DNA from: Crocinitomicaceae bacterium
GTDB lineage: Bacteria; Bacteroidota; Bacteroidia; Flavobacteriales_D; Crocinitomicaceae
DNA length: 64,000 nucleotides
Assembly (NCBI GenBank): GCA_030830895.1
Contig: JAURMC010000003.1
Span: forward strand, 1 to 64,000
Reading direction: 5' to 3'
Shown here: positions 20,433-33,504 of the stretch, in pieces
Numbering within the stretch: the first letter of the stretch is position 1
Layout: every line of letters starts with the position of its first letter
The notes under the pieces: generated by a model
Databases searched by the model: none
Seen by the model: only the letters and a program-made list of their open reading frames with translations
Told to the model about the DNA's origin: nothing
Made by a program: the position numbers and the translations under genes

Positions 20433-21890
20433 TTGAAGTTTTTTAAGCAACACTTAGATTCTTTTTACTTCTTTTTAAGTCTTGGTTTCTTAATTGGCTT
20501 GACATGTAGTAAGTTTTTGATGTCTGTGTCACTCATTTTACATGCGCTTATTTTTATTCTCGCTGGTAATTACGTGCTATTTATAAAACGGCTTCAATCA
20601 AATCAATGGCTTTTTTTACTACTCGCTTTTTGGGGTATCCATGCCCTAAGCCTACTATGGACTTCGGATTTACATGAAGGGTGGAATGCACTCCGAGTTC
20701 GGATTTCCATGGTTTCATTACCTCTGCTTTACATTGGAACCTTACCTTTTAACCCTAGGGTCCTTAATCGATACGTCCTTATATTAATGCTCACGATTAC
20801 CGTAGTGATAAGTTTAAATGTGCTTCATTATTGGTATTTACAACGACAAAATCTTGCCTTAGACATCCGTCAACTTAGCTGGTTTGGTTCTCACATTCGG
20901 TTTGGAATTTTGGTGGTATTTTCAGGAATCTTGGCTTTTAATTTATGGAAAAACAAATTGCTTTCAACGTTTTGGTTAATGGCTTATTTAGTATTAATTG
21001 GAATGTATACCCTCTATAGTCAAACGCTTAGCGCATACATTAGCGCATTGTTTGTATTGTTAGTCATCGCATATGATGTTATCAAGCCGACCAATTACTC
21101 CCGGATAATTGGGGTCGGGGTTATTGTGTTTATTGGGGTTTTGGGAGCACTGATTATAAATATTATTGCCACCCCTAGTAACACTTGTGGGTCCTTTACC
21201 TCTTCGGAAGAAGCCATCAAAGCTTGGTCCTTACGCTCTGATTTACCGATGGATTTATTAGACCGTAAAGGACAACGCATCATGCGAACTGCTGAACGTT
21301 ATTTATGTGATAAAGGAGAATCACTTACAGGAAAATCGATACAAAATCTAAGTCAACAAGATATATTAAATATTGAAAACGGCTTTACCAGTGAACATTC
21401 CGCTAGAGGAGGCCTATTAAGTCGCATCGAAGAAATAAGATTTGAGCTGCATGAGGCAACGGATCCTAATAACCATTCTCTGTTGCAGCGTTTAGAATAT
21501 TGGAAAACTGCATTGGCTGTGATAAATGACCATCCATTGATTGGAGTTGGAATTGGAGATATCAATCGTGAAATGAATAATAAATATAAGGAAACAGGTT
21601 CGTTGCTTACCCCTGAAAATCGACACCGTAGCCACAACATGTATTTAACTACTTGGATGGGAGTTGGAGTGCTTGGGATATTGATAATGTTATGGGGTAT
21701 AGGTTATTTCGGATGGATTGGATACAAAGAACATCAACCAATGCTTCTTGCATTTTGTGCCATTGTATTCACTACCATGTGCTTAGAAGATAGTTTTGAA
21801 ACCCAAGCAGGGTCTTCATTCGTGGGGTTTTTTATAGCGCTTCTTTGCGGACGAGAAGGTAGGGCAGCGTGGACCACTAAAAATTACTAA
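20433..21890 (+). CDS. O-antigen ligase/Wzy-like membrane protein
   Basis: A 485-residue polytopic membrane protein with about ten hydrophobic helices and one large extracytoplasmic loop (about 250-385). The Wzy_C-type signature is the segment LQRLEYWKTALAVINDHP followed by LIGVGIGDIN and HRSHNMYLTTWMGVGVLG. Such proteins polymerise or ligate lipid-linked glycans on the outer face of the inner membrane. The only start that keeps the first helix is TTG at 20433; the first in-frame ATG (20520) falls inside helix 1. It lies 8 bases after the S41 protease gene. Whether it acts on O-antigen, another polysaccharide or a glycoprotein cannot be told. Confidence 0.85.
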   Translation: MKFFKQHLDSFYFFLSLGFLIGLTCSKFLMSVSLILHALIFILAGNYVLFIKRLQSNQWLFLLLAFWGIHALSLLWTSDLHEGWNALRVRISMVSLPLLYIGTLPFNPRVLNRYVLILMLTITVVISLNVLHYWYLQRQNLALDIRQLSWFGSHIRFGILVVFSGILAFNLWKNKLLSTFWLMAYLVLIGMYTLYSQTLSAYISALFVLLVIAYDVIKPTNYSRIIGVGVIVFIGVLGALIINIIATPSNTCGSFTSSEEAIKAWSLRSDLPMDLLDRKGQRIMRTAERYLCDKGESLTGKSIQNLSQQDILNIENGFTSEHSARGGLLSRIEEIRFELHEATDPNNHSLLQRLEYWKTALAVINDHPLIGVGIGDINREMNNKYKETGSLLTPENRHRSHNMYLTTWMGVGVLGILIMLWGIGYFGWIGYKEHQPMLLAFCAIVFTTMCLEDSFETQAGSSFVGFFIALLCGREGRAAWTTKNY

Positions 21891-24122: not shown

Positions 24123-24914
24123 ATGAGAACAAGCATTTATATTATTGGACTTTTGTTTACTTGCATCTTATTACTTTCTTCAAGCAACACCTCGGAATAT
24201 CCCGAAATTAAAAATGAATCCTTCCAGATTGGCGAAAAACTAAGATATCGAATTAGTTTTGGTTTTATAGATGCTGGCGAAGCAACACTTGAAACCAAAT
24301 ACACCGATAAGAAAGGCGATAGTAGAAGTTTATATCATGTTGTTGGGATTGGAAAAACCTTAGGCGCATTTAATTCCGTTTTTAAAGTGGATGACCGTTA
24401 TGAATCCTATATCGACAAAAAAAGCATTATGCCATGGTATTTCGTACGACGTGTGGACGAAGGAGGATATAAAATAAAGCAAGATTATACATTCAAACAC
24501 AACATAGAGAAAGTGGATAACGGGAAAGGTAAAACCTTCAAAACACCTATGGGTGTACAAGATATGATCTCCTGTTTTTACCATGCCCGCACCCTTGATT
24601 TTAAAAACATAAAAAAAGGAAAGGTATTCTCTATCCCATGTTTTATGGATGATGAACTCTTTATATTAAAAATCAAGTACAAAGAGGATGAAGAAATAAA
24701 AATTCGCAAAGGAACTTTTCGCTGCATGCGATTTGTTCCAGTGGTTCAAACTGGAAGGTATTTCAAACATGAAGAAGATGTTAGCTTTTGGATTACCAAG
24801 GATAAAAACAGAATTCCGATTTTAGTAAAAGCAAAAATTCCAGTAGGAAACATAAAGATGCACCTTGTTGGATGGTATGGCCTTAAAAACGAATTAAGCA
24901 GTAAGATTAAATAA
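24123..24914 (+). CDS. DUF3108 secreted protein
   Basis: A 263-residue exported protein. The N terminus has a signal-like helix ([17 protein letters not shown]). The DUF3108 signature is [21 protein letters not shown] (about 38-58), followed by repeated beta strands and a conserved Cys-containing [11 protein letters not shown]. These are usually periplasmic or lipid-attached beta proteins of unknown role in Gram-negatives. An imperfect -7 box (AATCTTTG, 24113-24120) is 2 bases before the ATG. Its 3' end overlaps convergent queA by 8 bases. Confidence 0.85.
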
Positions 24915-25965
24915 TTAGCATGGCGTCTCCATACGAATAGAATCGGTACTTTTCTTTAATGGCTTCATGATAGGCCTCCATCATTAATTCGTGACCCATA
25001 AACGCCGAAATCATCATTAATAGTGTAGATAAAGGCGTGTGAAAATTTGTAATTAAGCAATCTGCAACCATAAAATCATAAGGGGGAAAAATAAATTTGT
25101 TAGTCCATCCGTCGAATGGTTTTAACATTCCCTCGGTTGATACAGATGATTCAATTGCGCGAACACTAGTTGTTCCAATAGCACAAATCTTTTTCTTGTT
25201 GCGCTTGGCCTCATTTACAATATTCACGGCTTTTTCTGAGATAATTACTTGCTCTGAATCCATTTTATGCTTGGTAAGGTCCTCCACTTCTACAGAACGA
25301 AACGTTCCCAATCCAACGTGAAGAGTTAACTCCGCAAAATTGACTCCTTTTAATTCTAAACGCTTTAACAATTCTCGAGAGAAATGTAATCCCGCTGTTG
25401 GAGCGGCAACAGCTCCTTCCTCCTTTGCGAAGATCGTTTGATACATTTCCTCATCCATTGGCTCAACCTCTCGTTTAATATATTTTGGGAGGGGTGTTTC
25501 GCCAAGTGATGTAATTATCTTCTTAAATTCTTCATATGGCCCATCAAATAAAAAACGGAGGGTTCGTCCACGCGAAGTCGTATTGTCTATAACCTCAGCT
25601 ACTAATGAATCATCTTCACCAAAATACAATTTATTTCCAATGCGTATTTTTCTAGCCGGATCGACTAAAACATCCCACAAAAAGCTTTCTCGGTTCAATT
25701 CTCGGAGCAAAAACACCTCAATTTTAGCCCCTGTTTTTTCTTTATTACCGTACATCCGAGCAGGGAATACTCGAGTATTGTTTAAAATCATCACATCGCC
25801 CTCATCAAAATAAGAAAGAACATCCTTAAATAACTTATGCTCAATCTTACGGGTTTTACGATTAATTACCATGAGACGACACTCATCACGATTTTCTGAA
25901 GGATATTCTGCGATTAATTCTTGGGGAAGGTCGAAGTTAAACTCCGACAATTTCATTTTACTCAT
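24907..25965 (-). CDS. queA: S-adenosylmethionine:tRNA ribosyltransferase-isomerase
   Basis: QueA transfers and rearranges the ribose of AdoMet onto preQ1-modified tRNA to give epoxyqueuosine. The 352 residues match the family, with N-terminal [23 protein letters not shown], then [47 protein letters not shown] and [19 protein letters not shown]. The start could be at 25965 or three codons on (25956). A perfect -7 box lies 17 bases upstream. Other queuosine genes are not in the window. Confidence 0.96.
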
Positions 25966-26127: not shown

Positions 26128-27519
26128 TTAAGGAATTCTTAACCGTTGTCCAACACGAATCGTGTCTGAGGAAAGTCCATTAACCCGTTTTATGTTGGAA
26201 ACTGTGGTATGATATCTTCGGGCAATGGCAGACAAGGTGTCTCCAGATTTAACCGTGTAACTTGAAGTCTTTTTAGGCGCTATTGGAGTCGCTACGTTCT
26301 CCTGGTATTCTTTTAAAGGAATACGTAATTCTTTCATGCTCATATTTCCGCTCAATGCCTTTAAAGTATTCATAAATGAGGTGTATAATAGCCCGCCTTT
26401 AACTTGATAACCATTATTTGTAAGATGAATATGATCACTTTTAGCATAACCCAGCATGGCCCACGTTCTAATGGTATTTAAGCCGCCAGATAAGTCATAC
26501 CAATTCCAAAACAAACAATTATTCTTTTTTGCCAAACTGTCCATTAAGTCACGAAACAATACTCCCGCGGTAATTGGATGCTTCTTATAATACAAATCTT
26601 GAGTGCTTGTTAACACAATTAGGACTTCCGGAACCATAGATTTCCACCAGTTTATGGCTTTTTCTACCTCCATGTAAAGTTTGGAATCAATTTTATTCTC
26701 ATACAAAATATCGTTAGTTCCAAAATCCAAAATCACGATATCCGGATTAATTACGGGAAGTTGCTCTGGAAGCTTTTCCAAAATTAACACCGATCTAAAT
26801 GCCGCAGCCCCCACTCCTGTTGAATGATAAATTATCCCTCCTCTTACCGCGTGCTCTATGTTGATTCCATAAAACCGAAACCGGTCGGTTTCCTTACTTT
26901 TTTTTGCAATTAGCTGAATTGAAGAAATAGAATCCCTCCAGGTAAAGGATAACCCTTGGGGTAAATAATTGAATGTAGTTATGATGGAATCATTAACCTT
27001 CACCTCTAAATTCATGGTTCTTTCATCTCGTTCAAACAATACCGTCACAATATTAAAATTCGAATCAATCACCTTTTTGATTCCAAAGCTCAATGAGGCA
27101 AGTGTATCTGTAGTTTCAACGACCATACCACAAACCCCAAGGGGCAAGTCCTGCTTTTTGCCTTGATAACTTTTATTGTATGTCCATTTCCCTGAATAGG
27201 TTGAAGAGTAATTAATTGAGGAATAGGTATTTGCTGCACCATAATTGAATAACAATCCTCGGCCTCCATCTCCAAAGGTTGCTTGAAGGAGATCCCGGGC
27301 AACCGTAGTAGGTCTCTCCGCTTGAATGTGGCTACCCCCATAATGCAAGATCACCAATTTACTCGAATCAACAGCATCAAACTTACTTTTTAGGCGACCT
27401 AAGGTTTCAGAACTATATCCTTGAATATAGGCAAAAGAGGAATCTATCTTTAGTTCCGTTGGAAGCTGTGCGAAAGTAGAGAAAGCGGCAATAAAAAAAA
27501 TATATACAATATTTCTCAT
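26128..27519 (-). CDS. Exported SGNH/GDSL-like hydrolase with C-terminal LysM domain
   Basis: A 463-residue protein with signal peptide [18 protein letters not shown]. The SGNH fold is supported by block [14 protein letters not shown] (S63; the usual Asp of GDSH is Gly here), block [15 protein letters not shown] (N269) and block [15 protein letters not shown] (D362, H365). A LysM domain occupies 420-463 ([18 protein letters not shown]), pointing to peptidoglycan or chitin-like glycan binding. It overlaps the DHHW gene by 4 bases (ATGA) and completes an MBOAT-DHHW-SGNH cassette. Inference: acyl-ester transfer or removal on a cell-wall glycan; activity not proven. Confidence 0.85.
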
Positions 27520-28847
27520 TCTTTATCGGTACTATCCAGGTGCTGGTTTTGTTCGATATTTGGGTCGTGTGACTCTGGATTATTTTGGGGGACATATACA
27601 CCGCTTTGTGTTGCTAGCCTTCGCATCATTCCAATGGTACCATTGCTCATCGCTGCGTACATGCCAACAGCAAAGACAATATCATTTATATTATTCTCCT
27701 TAATGATCTTAGTTAAATTGTGTTTAGAATATCTAAAATCAACTACCCATATTTCTTGATAATGATTCACCAAAAACACCGCGAATGCATTTCCCATAGA
27801 ATTCTTAATTACAACCGCTTTCTTGCCATTGTTAATTCCGGTTTGAATTCTGATTAAAGGCTCATCTCCCCCTAAAAAGGTTGAATAGGTATTCCCCCCT
27901 CTACTACTTTCATAAAAGACCTTTGTTTTTAAAGGTTTATCCGTAGTATACGGCCCAAATTTAAACGCTTCTGTTTGAACTTTAGGAATCCAATACTCCA
28001 TGGTGTCTGGATGGTCACGAACGGTAGGGTCCTGTGTATGCTGATACATAGTTCCCAAGAAATTATATTTTACCTTTTGGGTCATTTTTTCTAAGGGGAC
28101 TGCGTCTAAGCCCGCGGCCTTACAAAAAGCAACGTAGCCATAATAGGCTCCCAAGGGTTTCCAATGATGGTCAGTTCCGAAGTACAATTTCGTATTTGAG
28201 TGCTCGTTCAATTCATTAAATATATCACAAAAAATCGAGCCCCCTTTTAGGTTATGTTTAATTGCTAACAAAGTCCGTTTATTTTGGCTGTTATAATGGG
28301 CATATTTTTCGACAGGAATAAAGGCAGAAGATAATGGTGCAACGGCAGAAAACACTCGTTGATCTTTGAATGTACTTGCGTACTCATTTATCATGTCTGC
28401 AAAGTATTTAGACATTGCAGGGCTCCCTCCACCCATTGGATAGACACAACCATCAATAATAAGCATTGAACCTGCGTACTTTTCCTCAAACTCATCTAGG
28501 AAAGCCATTTGACTCTTAGTGCTATCAATAGTTTTTTCTTGATGTTTTGCCTTTTTCTTTGGTAATACAACAACTCGTTCGCTATGCTCAAGCTGAAATC
28601 CTTTAGCTGCATGAAAAAAATCAGTCGCCGAAATAAAACTCATTCGGAAAGGAAAATGATCATCCACGTATTTATCCACTTGTTTTGTCCAGATTCCTGC
28701 TAAGTAATTTTCTGAATTGAGAGTTGGAAAAGTTGCCAGTTTGCGTTTTTCCTTATTTGATATATCTGCCTTTGGCATAAAAATGAACCCTATTGAGAAC
28801 CCAAATACTAAGGCAAAAAACAAGAAAACATTTATCTTTTTATCCAT
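27516..28847 (-). CDS. DHHW/AlgX-AlgJ-like SGNH acyltransferase partner
   Basis: A 443-residue protein with one N-terminal membrane helix ([19 protein letters not shown]) and an extracytoplasmic domain. The DHHW motif is at residues 226-229 in [16 protein letters not shown], with an upstream DDHFPFR and a late nucleophile-like Ser in [14 protein letters not shown] (about S350). These are the features of the DHHW family related to AlgX/AlgJ, which receive acetyl groups from an MBOAT protein and pass them to a polysaccharide. The ATG at 28847 shares a base with the MBOAT stop (TGATG); the in-frame codon before it is TTG. The middle gene of the cassette. Confidence 0.88.
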
Positions 28848-30241
28848 CAAAACCGAGTATATAGAAAAGGATTATATGTTGCATTAACCAATAACATGGT
28901 AGATAGTACTAATAAAAAGACATTAGCAAATGGCCTCACATATGCATATTGCAAGGCAATTCGATTTCGAAGGGGGTGCTCAGTTGGGTAGATTTCATCC
29001 CATGGAATACATAATAAGACAACTAAAATAAACCAAAACATATGTGTGGTAATGTCTGATAAAAAACCTGCGTTTATGGAATGTTTAGAATAGAATAGAT
29101 TTCCAACAAAATAGGTTAGTTTATTGAAATCTACAAAGTAAAAAATCGCCCGACTGAATACAATAAGAATTAAGGTATAGCCATGCTTGAATATGCGTGG
29201 TGTTTTATCCAAAACAAATTTTAAGTGTTTTTCCAACACCATCATAACACCGAAATATGTTCCCCAAAGGGCAAAGTTCCAATTTGCACCGTGCCACAAA
29301 CCGGTTAAAAACCAAACAATTAAAATGTTTCTATCCTGATACCTTCTATTACCTCCTAATGGAATATATACATAGTCTCGAAAAAACCGTCCTAACGAAA
29401 TATGCCATCTACGATAAAAGTCTCCCACAGAAATTGCGGCATAAGGATGTTTAAAATTCTCATGAAAATCAAACCCAAACAATTTAGCTAAGCCTATTGC
29501 CATGTCCGAATAACCTGAGAAATCAAAATACAGCTGAATTGAAAACATCACAATTCCAAACCAACTTTCATAAGAAGACAAAGAATACAACTGCGTATTT
29601 AAATACTTGTCTACTAATACTCCCGCTACATTGGCAATTGCTACCTTTTTAAATAATCCAATACAAAACCGTGTAATTCCTTCACTCAACCTAGACCAAT
29701 CAACATTTCGTTTCTCCACCTGTTCCGAAATCTGACTATAACGCACAATCGGACCGGCAACTAAATGCTGAAACAAACTAATAAACATTAAGAAATTCAA
29801 TGGATTGCGCTGTGCCTTAATTTCTCCTCGGTAGATATCTACCACATAAGAAATAACCATGAACGTATAAAAAGATATACCAACAGGTAGCGAATTATGA
29901 GGGCGATCAAAAGGTAGCGGTAAAAAATAGCTTAGGTTATCATATATAAAACCTCCATATTTATATGCAACCAGTAGACCAATGTTAACGGAAATACTAA
30001 CAATTAAACCTACCTTGGCCCAAGATGTATCACGTTTTTTTTCGATGTAAAGTCCGGTAGAGTAATCAAATAATGCCGTAAATACCATTAAAAAAATCCA
30101 CATGGGTTCCGCCCATGCATAAAACACTAAGGAAAAAACAGTGAGGAAAATATTTCGAAACAAGTCGTTCTTGGTCGAATAATGAAATATCAGACTTAAA
30201 GGTAAAAACAAGTAAAGGAAAGTTAAACTTGAAAATACCAT
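28847..30241 (-). CDS. MBOAT-family O-acyltransferase (AlgI-like)
   Basis: A 464-residue polytopic membrane protein starting MVFSSLTFLYLFLPLS, as AlgI/PatA-type proteins do. Diagnostic sequence includes LPVGISFYTFMVISYVVDIYRG (118-139), FQHLVAGPIVRYSQI, the RRWHISLGRFFRDYVYIPLGG block (277-297) and the catalytic-type His H317 in FLTGLWHGANWNF. Such proteins move acetyl groups from cytosolic acetyl-CoA across the inner membrane to an extracytoplasmic partner. First gene of the three-gene cassette. Acetyl donor is from family knowledge; the acceptor glycan is unknown. Confidence 0.93.
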   Translation of the reverse strand: MVFSSLTFLYLFLPLSLIFHYSTKNDLFRNIFLTVFSLVFYAWAEPMWIFLMVFTALFDYSTGLYIEKKRDTSWAKVGLIVSISVNIGLLVAYKYGGFIYDNLSYFLPLPFDRPHNSLPVGISFYTFMVISYVVDIYRGEIKAQRNPLNFLMFISLFQHLVAGPIVRYSQISEQVEKRNVDWSRLSEGITRFCIGLFKKVAIANVAGVLVDKYLNTQLYSLSSYESWFGIVMFSIQLYFDFSGYSDMAIGLAKLFGFDFHENFKHPYAAISVGDFYRRWHISLGRFFRDYVYIPLGGNRRYQDRNILIVWFLTGLWHGANWNFALWGTYFGVMMVLEKHLKFVLDKTPRIFKHGYTLILIVFSRAIFYFVDFNKLTYFVGNLFYSKHSINAGFLSDITTHMFWFILVVLLCIPWDEIYPTEHPLRNRIALQYAYVRPFANVFLLVLSTMLLVNATYNPFLYTRF

Positions 30242-30271
30242 GGACTACTAATTGGATATTATTTAAGACAA

Positions 30272-30279
30272 CGAAATTA
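30272..30279 (-). promoter_or_regulatory. Putative -7 box for the MBOAT cassette
   Basis: Reverse-strand TAATTTCG, one mismatch from TAnnTTTG, 30 bases before the MBOAT ATG at 30241. Confidence 0.35.
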
Positions 30280-30296
30280 ACCACATTATACCGAAG

Positions 30297-30342
30297 AAAA
30301 AAATCAGGGCTCTTAGCGGCAAAAAATTGTAAAATTGTCGCT
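30297..30342 (-). terminator. Possible weak terminator after the transketolase C half
   Basis: On the reverse strand AGCGACAA (30342-30335) can pair with TTGCCGCT (30322-30315) with one G-U pair and a 12-base loop. A T-run follows only after a 12-base GC-containing stretch (A-run at 30297-30303), so termination would be inefficient or factor-assisted. Confidence 0.3.
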
Positions 30343-31298
30343 TAAATTGCTTTTCTTCTCAGTGCTTTTTCTGCGGCACGTACGATATCTACCATTTCGA
30401 GACGATATTTTTTTAATAATTCACTCGGAGTTCCACTTTCACCAAACGTGTCATTAACAGCGACAAATTCTTGAGGGATTGGCATATTTCTCGCCAATAC
30501 TTGAGCAACGGCATCACCAAGGCCCCCATTCATCATATGTTCTTCAGCTGTTACAATACAACCCGTTTTGTTTACAGAATTCAAAATAGCTTCGATGTCT
30601 AAAGGTTTAATCGTATGCATATTAATCACTTCAGCAGAAATTCCTTTTTCTGCTAACTGGTCTCGAGCTTCTAGGGCTTTCCATACCAAATGGCCACAGG
30701 CGATAATGGTAACATCTGTTCCTTTAATTAAAACATCTGCTTTTCCGATTTGAAATACCGCATCTTCAGGTGTAAAAATGGGAACAGAAGGTCTTCCAAA
30801 ACGCAAATAAACCGGGCCTTCCCAAGCAGCAATAGCCAAGGTAGCCTGAAGCGTTTGGTTATAATCTGCGGGAACGACAACCGTCATATTCGGAAGCATT
30901 CGCATCATTCCAATGTCCTCTAATACTTGATGCGTAGCGCCGTCCTCACCGAGGGTAAGCCCAGCATGTGAAGCACAGATTTTTACATTTTTTCGGGAAT
31001 AAGCAATGCTTTGACGAATTTGGTCGTAAACACGTGAGGTTGAAAAATTTGCAAAGGTTCCCGTAAAAGGAATTTTACCTCCAATGGACATTCCTGCGGC
31101 TATTCCCATCATATTTGCTTCGGCAATCCCAATTTGAAAAAACCGATCTGGATGATTTCTCTGAAACGCATCCATTTTTAATGAGCCTGTAAGATCCGCA
31201 CATAATGCAACTACTTCTGGGTTCGTCTCTCCTAAAATCCTTAGCCCTTCTCCAAACCCTGATCTTGTGTCTTTATTTCCGAACGTTTTGAATGCCAT
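30342..31298 (-). CDS. Transketolase C-terminal subunit (split)
   Basis: The 318-residue pyrimidine-binding plus C-terminal domain of transketolase. Seen: [38 protein letters not shown] with the Glu that activates thiamine pyrophosphate, the loop [19 protein letters not shown], and the regulatory domain from about 190 ([17 protein letters not shown]). It works as a heterodimer partner of the N-terminal half encoded at 32668-33504 to move two-carbon units in the pentose phosphate pathway. Split transketolases are common in bacteria, but here a von Willebrand A gene lies between the halves. Confidence 0.93.
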
Positions 31299-31305
31299 AT
31301 TTAGT

Positions 31306-32664
31306 TTAATTAATATTTAAAATTTGCGTTTTATTACTTGAGATCGTTATGATTTTTTCGTTGGTATATCCGCTTGATTTCATCTCTTTATTTCGGTAAA
31401 CCATCTTATATGTGCCCGGTTGTAATAATAATTTCCCTGCGGTTTTTGTATCTGAAAACGTATATACCTCTCCCCAAAAACCACGATTATCTTGCAGGAA
31501 AAGTTGAGCAATAAGTGGTTTTTTAAAGGTATAAGTTAATTCTCCAGGAGCATCTATCGAAACGGTGGTTACTGAAGATTGGGTAACCTCTATCGATTTA
31601 TACAATCGAGGTATAGTAAATACCTCTACATTATAACTTCCAATTAAATACTTAGCGTTTTCATTGTATGTTTGAACGTTTAATGGTTGGGGTTCTCCTT
31701 TCCGAATTACTCTCATTTCAAACATTGGATTGAAATTGCTTTTCGGAGAGGTTAACTTTATAACGCCTTGTGCTGCTGGAATTACCAATGTGTTATGTAC
31801 ATGCTCTTTCAGCTTAATGCCCGTTTTTGTTATAGCCGGCATAGTGTTTACGATTAAATCATAAGAGATAGAAGGGTCAAGATAAAGCGTGTCAGGAAAG
31901 CCATAACGGTTCAATGTATGAACAAAAGTATATTTTAAATTTGCCGTCCCAGACTCGTAAAAAAACATAGTAACGTTTGTTTCAAGCGCTTTCCCTTCAA
32001 TATTGTTCAAATTAACCTGCACGGTTGTTTTATCCAGGACCGTATTTAATATGTTTTTGAAAACATTTCGAAAGGATTCTTTGTCTTCGGCATCTGAATA
32101 GGTCCCAATACAACTGAATTGATCCAAGTAAGACATATCCATTCCTAAACCGATAACAAAAGGGGTAACCTTTACTCCTTTTGTTTTAAGTTTTTTAGCA
32201 ATAATGCAGGGGTCGTTATCACAGGATTCTAGGCCATCCGTAATTAATATAATAACGTTTCTTGCTAGTGTGTCTGGAAAATCATTTGCTGCGGCCTCGA
32301 GAGAACGAGCAATTGGCGTAGCCCCTTTTGCTTCTACTGATTTAATTTTAAGTTTAATTTGTTCAAGATTGTTGTTTCCAAATGGGACCTCCAATTTGGT
32401 ATCATTACAATCTTGCTCTAGGTTATTAAAGGGTGTTTGATGGCCATAAATACGCAATGCAACTTCTACATTAGGAACATTGCGTAAAACTTCTAATTCT
32501 TGGTTTAGGACCTCTCGAGCAGCTTGAATGCGTGTTTGATTACCCCATGCGGAATTCATACTATTGGACGCGTCAATAATAAAAAGCACACGAATTGGTG
32601 GGTTTAATTGCCCCAAAATCGTAAAGCAATAAAAAATAAAAACGAAAAAAGTAATTCCTTTCAT
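31306..32664 (-). CDS. Exported von Willebrand factor A domain protein
   Basis: A 452-residue protein with signal peptide [19 protein letters not shown]. The VWA domain (about 25-215) keeps a complete MIDAS: DASNS at 31-35, the Thr in [10 protein letters not shown] and the Asp in [10 protein letters not shown]. The following 230 residues are beta-rich without a recognised domain and contain runs such as [16 protein letters not shown]. It could be a surface or periplasmic metal-dependent binding protein. It lies 3 bases after the transketolase N half and 7 bases before the C half, so all three share a transcript. No functional link to transketolase is known to me. Confidence 0.88.
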
Positions 32665-32667
32665 TTA

Positions 32668-33504
32668 TTAAAAATCTCCGAGTGTTTCTGGAAGTTGCGA
32701 CAAGGCGATTGCCAATTGTTCATCATTCGGGGCAGAACCATGCCATTTATGGGTACCCATCATGAAATCTACCCCTTTGCCCATTTCTGTTTTCATAATG
32801 ATCATTTTCGGCGTTCCATTTGATTTATTTAAATCTATGGTATCGAATACTTCACGCATGCTATCGTAATTATGCCCATCCATATGGTAAACATCCCATC
32901 CAAATGCTTTCCACTTACCTTCAATCGGCATAATTCCCATGACATCACTGACATCACCATCAATCTGACGATTGTTATAATCAATTATACCAATAAGGTT
33001 ACTAATCCCCTTACTTCCCGCATACATTGCTGCTTCCCAAACCTGTCCTTCTTGTAACTCACCATCACCCATCAAACAATAGACCATAGATTGATCCGAG
33101 TTCATTTTTTTAGCGGTCGCAGCGCCAATAGCAACAGATAGCCCTTGTCCAAGTGATCCTGAAGCCATTCGAATACCCGGTAAATTTTTATCCACCGAAG
33201 GATGACCTTGTAGTCGACTAGAAATCTTTCTAAATGTGGATAATTCACTTATTGGAAAGAAGCCTGTTCGAGCCAATATACTATACCATACGGGAGAAAT
33301 ATGCCCGTTTGATAAAAAGAACATATCTTCATTCAACCCTTCCATTGTGAATTGATTCCCATTCACCTTTAATCTTTCTGTGTACATAAAAGTAAAGAAA
33401 TCTGCACATCCCAAAGACCCTCCTGGATGTCCGGAGTTTACCGCATGTACCATTCGTAGAATATCTCTTCTTACTTGTGTTGCTATCGACTCTAAATCTG
33501 CCAT
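32668..33504 (-). CDS. Transketolase N-terminal subunit (split)
   Basis: The 278-residue thiamine pyrophosphate/Mg-binding half. RRDILRMVHAVNSGHPGGSLGCADFF (about 12-37) and the TPP motif GDGELQEGQVWEAAMYAG through GIIDYNNRQIDG (about 150-190) are clear. Contacts such as SNGHISPVWYSIL are conserved. Partner of the C-terminal half at 30342-31298. A perfect -7 box is 13 bases upstream. First gene of a three-gene transcript (tktN, VWA, tktC). Confidence 0.94.
   Translation of the reverse strand: MADLESIATQVRRDILRMVHAVNSGHPGGSLGCADFFTFMYTERLKVNGNQFTMEGLNEDMFFLSNGHISPVWYSILARTGFFPISELSTFRKISSRLQGHPSVDKNLPGIRMASGSLGQGLSVAIGAATAKKMNSDQSMVYCLMGDGELQEGQVWEAAMYAGSKGISNLIGIIDYNNRQIDGDVSDVMGIMPIEGKWKAFGWDVYHMDGHNYDSMREVFDTIDLNKSNGTPKMIIMKTEMGKGVDFMMGTHKWHGSAPNDEQLAIALSQLPETLGDF

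Follow-up and report, generated by a model that had tools for sequence, protein, structure and literature searches.

Closest described systems

O-acetylation of the cell wall controls autolysins and resistance to lysozyme, and its mechanism in Gram-negative bacteria is known from the proteins PatA, PatB and Ape1. In PatA, the tyrosine of a C-terminal hexapeptide (FIYANF in Neisseria gonorrhoeae) ferries acetyl to PatB (PMC12148441). In the current study, a related three-gene locus was analysed in a 64,000-nucleotide stretch of a Crocinitomicaceae genome (contig JAURMC010000003.1, positions 1 to 64,000, hereafter the window). The triplet encodes an MBOAT acyltransferase, a DHHW-family protein and an Ape1-like SGNH protein with a LysM domain. 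Most probably it is a variant operon for peptidoglycan O-acetylation: the DHHW protein would carry out the PatB step and the LysM-bearing Ape1-like protein would remove acetyl.

The order ape1b-ape1c-pat of peptidoglycan O-acetylation (OAP) clusters was described by Weadge (2005), Bacteroides included, and O-acetylation of peptidoglycan was given as 69% in B. fragilis and 27% in B. thetaiotaomicron (PMC1199599). As in these clusters, and in patA-patB-ape1 of Neisseria and Campylobacter, a single operon of the triplet encodes an MBOAT ending in F-x-Y-x-x-F, a protein with the Ape1 fold and an SGNH-type partner that acts outside the cytoplasm. Systems of the PatA/PatB/Ape1 kind are already known; what is new is a DHHW protein in place of PatB (or ape1b) and a LysM domain on Ape1. 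The MBOAT also belongs to another branch, unlike that of the OAP clusters.

PatA1/PatB1 of Bacillus cereus is likewise an MBOAT and DHHW pair, with the DHHW, serine and DxRY motifs found here; unlike that pair, the triplet adds an Ape1-like protein that bears LysM. Both the DHHW block and the DxRY block have been described for PatB1. Although secondary wall polysaccharide is its assigned acceptor, the B. cereus protein (BcPatB1) can acetylate disaccharides of GlcNAc-MurNAc in vitro (PMC9487903). The AlgI-AlgJ-AlgX and CcsHI systems also combine an MBOAT with SGNH-like partners, and comparison of the predicted DHHW structure gave Z scores of 15.4 with AlgJ and 14.2 with AlgX, the latter at a poor root-mean-square deviation (rmsd) of 10.7. 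Unlike in AlgI-AlgJ-AlgX, WssHI and CcsHI, no alginate or cellulose synthase was found among the neighbours scanned, and the third protein is Ape1-like. A preliminary description of this locus had proposed a possible cell-wall O-acylation module, leaning on the AlgI/AlgJ model. The proposal looks right for the most part, but the OAP system of patA/patB/ape1 type, of which the locus looks like a variant, had been overlooked (PMC1199599, PMC12148441). A search of open-licence PMC articles returned no recognised description of an MBOAT-DHHW-Ape1/LysM operon.

A chromosomal slot shared with the OAP cluster

The position of the triplet was surveyed in 60 genomes, namely its own and 59 relatives, 36 of them from the same genus (37 genus genomes in all). 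Cluster A (ape1b-ape1c-patA), which has the gene order reported for the OAP cluster, was present in 21 of the 37, and patA adjoined queA in every one of these; contig ends cut the cluster in four genomes (G010, G015, G029, G032). Nine genomes carried the triplet (G000, G001, G003, G004, G005, G006, G007, G009, G025), and seven of these had it in the slot of cluster A, six beside queA and one (G007) after tktC, visible from the tkt side only since its contig ends. In G005 it adjoins x661, a gene that flanks the slot, away from queA. Neither set was found in five genomes (G012, G018, G021, G024, G034). The slot is empty in G021 (L056), where x661 and queA lie side by side. Since queA has other neighbours in G003, G005, G012, G014 and G030, the slot is no longer intact there.

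The triplet occupies the place that holds the usual wall-acetylation genes in close relatives, and therefore looks like a natural replacement set made of different parts, standing in for ape1b-ape1c-patA. This positional evidence is the strongest obtained. Among the 22 genus genomes that are at least 90% complete, 13 carry cluster A, eight the triplet or a divergent form of it, one neither and none both (Fisher 2.8e-5, by count and uncorrected for descent). A tree of flanking genes requires four changes between cluster A, the triplet and none; it covers 34 of the 37 genomes (the other three had no usable flanking gene), 13 of its rows fill less than half of the columns, and it includes some long terminal branches.

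The two sets differ in descent. In a tree of 50 chosen MBOAT sequences, those of cluster A (13) together with C-type and other proteins (10) were split from those of the triplet (19) and of MBOAT-DHHW pairs (8) with a support of 99, and the replacement is therefore non-orthologous. In a tree of 52 chosen SGNH sequences, 14 ape1c proteins formed one side of a branch (support 99); the triplet proteins lay elsewhere, mixed with free-standing LysM relatives. As both trees separate the sets, the slot holds two assemblies of different descent and the same logic. An origin of the triplet in cluster A through gain of a LysM domain was rejected, given that the MBOATs lie across a branch of support 99 and the ape1c group lies apart from the triplet SGNH proteins. 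A LysM gain was also seen within cluster A, where an ape1c of G046 (L087:7158-8900) has two LysM domains.

The three proteins of the triplet

The catalytic histidine of the MBOAT, His317, sits in the sequence WHG, and together with the C-terminal F-x-Y-x-x-F it gives the protein the features of an OAP-type MBOAT. Its ending fits the acyl-tyrosine shuttle motif of PatA, and F-x-Y-x-x-F was conserved in all 51 triplet MBOATs. The genome (1.6 Mb, 63.6% complete, 16 contigs) has a single MBOAT-family match.

The middle protein matched the PDB entry 4nzk (7.1e-43) and BcPatB1 (2e-8). Its predicted structure (mean predicted local distance difference test score, pLDDT, 82.1) has the DHHW fold and superimposes on 4nzk with a Z score of 37.5 (rmsd 1.9 over 291 residues) and on BcPatB1 with 26.1 (rmsd 2.8 over 274 residues). 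The residues D226-H227-H228-W229, S350 and D370-F-R372-Y373 supply the DHHW block, the serine and the block II DxRY of this family, and D226, H227, H228, W229, S350, D370, R372 and Y373 were invariant in 39 of 39 aligned sequences (38 of 50 DHHW proteins, plus that of the window). With Pfam, no DUF459/PatB family was detected up to an E value of 0.1, so that the protein is a DHHW protein and not a PatB-type transferase by family. With NCBIfam, none of the three triplet proteins matched a model above its cut-off.

The SGNH protein resembles an Ape1 esterase to which a LysM domain has been joined. Besides LysM it matched Lipase_GDSL_2 in Pfam (1.7e-8), and its similarity to Ape1 of Neisseria meningitidis (NmApe1) had an E value of 1.7e-11, or 9.1e-28 by profile. 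The residues of the Ape1 triad and oxyanion hole are present (Ser63, Gly235, Asn269, Asp362 and His365), each invariant in 38 of 38 sequences (37 of 46 LysM-bearing SGNH proteins, plus that of the window). In the predicted structure (pLDDT 90.5) a beta domain is inserted in the SGNH core, as in Ape1, and the likeness to NmApe1 (4k3u; Z 35.5, rmsd 2.7 Å, 337 of 350 residues) and Campylobacter jejuni Ape1 (8gld; Z 32.4, rmsd 3.3, 347 residues) extends over nearly the whole chain; both entries were taken as Ape1 from their titles. The next-best protein, a mannan esterase, reached a Z score of 17.6, and PatB of C. jejuni one of 14.0. Besides the LysM domain, the protein differs from Ape1 in block I, which reads GGSH and not GDSH, and identity is about 20%. 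The fold, the profile match and the four-base overlap place an Ape1-type protein within the same operon, as in OAP clusters.

In PatB the block II glycine is replaced by Ser or Asn (PMC12148441). The third protein was judged Ape1-esterase-like because its likeness to the Ape1 fold is far above that to PatB and because this glycine is kept throughout the alignment. A gene first named ape2 from its sequence turned out to encode the transferase PatB (PMC6174289), and it can therefore be misleading to call an SGNH protein an esterase from its family alone. The predicted fold and block II nevertheless argue for an esterase, short of proof.

Gene layout

On the minus strand the genes follow the order tktN, VWA gene, tktC, MBOAT, DHHW, SGNH+LysM and queA (table 1). 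The MBOAT and DHHW genes overlap by one base (28847), and the DHHW and SGNH genes by four (27516-27519). The DHHW start was taken as the ATG at 28847; the open reading frame finder gives a TTG at 28850. These coordinates agree with the tight coupling noted in the preliminary description, and translation placed its MBOAT H317, DHHW 226-229 and serine near 350 (Ser350) where it had put them.

Table 1. Features of the triplet locus and of its borders in the window.
Feature	Position	Strand	Details
MBOAT membrane acyltransferase (PatA/PatA1-like)	28847..30241	-	464 aa; Pfam MBOAT 1.5e-23; PDB DltB-type chains 5.6e-21
Last six codons of MBOAT, FLYTRF, putative acyl-tyrosine shuttle	28850..28867	-	From translation; motif function taken from PatA (PMC12148441)
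DHHW-family protein (PatB1-like), putative transferase	27516..28847	-	443 aa; N-terminal helix, then SGNH-like domain; Pfam DHHW 6e-44
Ape1-like SGNH protein, putative esterase	26128..27519	-	463 aa; beta domain inserted in core; C-terminal LysM
LysM domain (residues 421-463 of SGNH protein)	26131..26259	-	Pfam LysM 8.8e-20
queA, one border of the slot	24907..25965	-	Pfam Queuosine_synth 4.7e-140
tktC, VWA gene and tktN, other border of the slot	30342..33504	-	Pfam; gene order shared with relatives of both types

At the second border, the two halves of transketolase are split by the VWA-domain gene; the genus genomes inspected at the tkt region have this order as well. The gene x661 (DUF255/thioredoxin-type, about 660 aa) is present at this place in many relatives, and is absent from the window (30242-30341) and from its nearest relatives. 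The nearest titled relatives of the window are metagenome-assembled genomes (MAGs) labelled Flavobacteriales, one of them of pond origin. No polysaccharide synthase was found with Pfam in the operon or its direct neighbours (tkt, VWA, queA); genes further out were scanned in part.

Conservation of the triplet

The synteny search suggested in the preliminary description found the triplet conserved, so that the first outcome named there as refuting the proposal did not arise. The best 80 of 229 candidate stretches from a scan with the SGNH alignment were kept, corresponding to 79 loci. A DHHW gene lay within about 310 bases of the SGNH gene in 52 of the 79, and 51 of these 52 also had the MBOAT; because of this recurrence, the triplet is not a chance arrangement. 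LysM was present on 47 of the 52 SGNH proteins (46, and L152), and four of the other five (L138, L147, L150, L154) reach contig ends. The gene order of the window was kept in most triplets, the exceptions being L140 (DHHW-SGNH-MBOAT) and L123, where the SGNH gene is on the strand opposite to the other two.

Records with the triplet were labelled Flavobacteriales, Crocinitomicaceae, Cyclobacteriaceae, Bacteroidales and others, and some MAG labels look unreliable (e.g. Burkholderiaceae for L153). Across an even sample of the phylum (295 genomes besides that of the window), the DHHW profile gave a single strong match, in G172, and weak ones in G044 and G306. Several lineages carry the triplet and the sample gave one strong DHHW match, so the system is spread yet rare. 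Matches of ape1b type occurred in 53 genomes of the sample, some weak or perhaps from other SGNH families. No genome of the sample had strong matches to both the DHHW and ape1b profiles, which says little on exclusivity as few genomes have DHHW. The G172 locus (L175), from another order-level lineage, has an MBOAT of triplet type and a DHHW gene with no adjacent SGNH gene.

In three loci a small glucosaminidase gene overlaps the stop of the triplet SGNH gene by four bases (L119:8428-8901, L121:8380-8853, L122:8398-8877), giving a four-gene operon. Thirteen of the 18 triplet neighbours scanned in other lineages matched Pfam, namely these three glucosaminidases and ten others, among them grpE, folB and genes for an ABC transporter and a helicase. 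None of the 18 was a polysaccharide synthase by Pfam, with part of the nearby genes covered.

Proposed mechanism and alternative explanations

From these families and residues we infer the chemistry, the direction of each step and the acceptor as follows. Acetyl would pass from acetyl-CoA to the MBOAT tyrosine, then to the serine of the DHHW protein (Ser350), and from there to the glycan strand of peptidoglycan. The DHHW protein is probably held in the membrane by its N-terminal helix, and its PatB step is proposed by analogy with BcPatB1. The exported Ape1-type SGNH protein, held at the wall by LysM, would strip acetyl off again, which would reopen the strands to autolysins. Peptidoglycan as acceptor, and a transferase and an esterase acting on one polymer, had both been suggested in the preliminary description. 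The Ape1 fold, obtained by the structure prediction that it had called for, the slot of the OAP cluster, the LysM domain and the glucosaminidase genes overlapping downstream in three loci support both suggestions. Further arguments for peptidoglycan are the acetylation of GlcNAc-MurNAc by PatB1 in vitro and the LysM proteins with an SLT domain found upstream of cluster A in some other families.

Several observations weigh against this reading. Two of the nine carriers were deduced from fragments: G001 has its MBOAT and SGNH genes at the ends of two contigs, between which the DHHW gene would fall, and the contig of G007 breaks off within the DHHW gene and shows no SGNH gene. The triplet of G003 lies elsewhere than in the slot. 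In G014 and G030 the MBOAT and DHHW genes form a divergent pair, and the SGNH+LysM genes are not linked to it. Besides a triplet in the slot, G006 carries cluster-A genes on a contig of 3 kb; the closest patA available for comparison is 60% identical to the one there, and contamination is on these grounds neither shown nor excluded. With correction for descent, the exclusivity of the two sets comes down to three independent pairs, which cannot reach significance, as there were few independent changes. One triplet (L153) has an intact SGNH protein without LysM. MBOAT-DHHW pairs without an SGNH gene occur at L179-L185, one of them (L182) in G011, a member of the genus that carries cluster A, and the pair alone can therefore do something else. 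About 4 kb from the triplet, on the opposite strand, there is an O-antigen ligase-like gene (20433-21890). Finally, the acceptors of DHHW proteins in the literature consulted are secondary wall polysaccharide (shown) and cellulose (proposed), not peptidoglycan.

A cluster-A patA of G006 (L059, contig C252) ends in FVYFSY, and not in F-x-Y-x-x-F.

The SGNH+LysM protein might instead receive acetyl from the DHHW protein and be the final transferase on peptidoglycan, in a relay resembling the AlgJ/AlgX split of alginate acetylation. There the last transfer is made by the polymer-binding partner AlgX, AlgJ showing weak or no binding to the polymer (PMC4148444); in the triplet it is the SGNH protein that bears LysM, and the gene overlaps suggest joint expression. 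Such a relay is unlikely in view of the structural comparison, with Z 35.5 for Ape1 against 14.0 for PatB, and of the hydrolase-type block II glycine in 38 of 38 sequences. SGNH+LysM relatives also occur in loci with no recognised DHHW or MBOAT gene (L142, L143; L130, L133, L134), as a free-standing esterase could; the last three belong to the lineage where G014 and G030 keep an MBOAT-DHHW pair elsewhere.

It is also improbable that the MBOAT and DHHW proteins acetylate another surface glycan (a secreted polysaccharide, O-antigen or similar), with the SGNH+LysM protein merely a wall anchor, although the acceptors known or proposed for DHHW proteins, the pairs lacking a third gene and the ligase-like gene would all agree with this. 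That gene adjoins tyrS, and a gene of like length is found at the same place in cluster-A genomes as well (judged by order and length only). The slot belongs to the peptidoglycan cluster, the third protein has the Ape1 fold, and the 18 neighbours scanned included no synthase. To our knowledge, the B. cereus acceptor, secondary wall polysaccharide, is not expected in a member of the Bacteroidota.

That the slot is just a tolerant insertion site, holding two sets with unrelated jobs, is very hard to credit: it is empty or broken up in some genomes and the triplet lies in unrelated places in other lineages, but wherever a border of the slot was recognisable it held either cluster A or the triplet, or was empty, and both sets consist of an F-x-Y-x-x-F MBOAT, an Ape1-family protein and one more SGNH-type protein.

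Possible transferases of related clusters

In cluster-A ape1b, the block II glycine is replaced by Ala or Pro in five of six sequences of one alignment, and the Ser and Asp-x-x-His are kept (e.g. L045:5617-7095, L046:7134-8585). Judged by these residues, ape1b may be the transferase of Bacteroidota OAP clusters and not an esterase. In some other families, LysM proteins are encoded upstream of cluster A. An SLT lytic transglycosylase domain scored above the Pfam cut-off in five of the seven scanned, all directly upstream of ape1b (L085, L089, L166, L167, L168); L050 was just below it (20.5 vs 21.3 bits) and L169 had none. Other cluster-A loci, including those of the genus, had no gene of that kind upstream.

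A third arrangement in the genus, cluster C (L043, L044, L048, L049, L060, L065), consists of an SGNH-like protein of about 270-320 aa, followed by an F-x-Y-x-x-F MBOAT and an Ape1-like protein, which carries LysM in four of the six. The SGNH-like protein (the middle protein of the scheme) has the blocks GDSE/GDSQ, GLNE and D-x-RHPS; the one scanned with Pfam (L044) gave no match, and a PDB search with one such protein found nothing. Cluster C co-occurs with the triplet in G005, G007 and G025, and with cluster A in G036.

Peptidoglycan O-acetylation in Bacteroidota could be modular, a proposal with an even chance of being right: the tyrosine-tailed MBOAT and the Ape1-type esterase would be kept, and the transferase swapped among ape1b (cluster A), DHHW (triplet) and a PatB-like protein (cluster C).

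Implications

A replacement set at a shared locus offers a clean test of the essential parts of wall O-acetylation, since the transferase differs between the sets and both retain a tyrosine-tailed MBOAT and an Ape1-type protein. The proposed reading of the triplet predicts a DHHW enzyme able to use peptidoglycan, and predicts that some ape1b "esterases" of Bacteroidota are transferases. If the modular scheme holds, the triplet would represent a DHHW protein working on peptidoglycan, unreported in the literature searched, together with a wall-anchored eraser of the modification.

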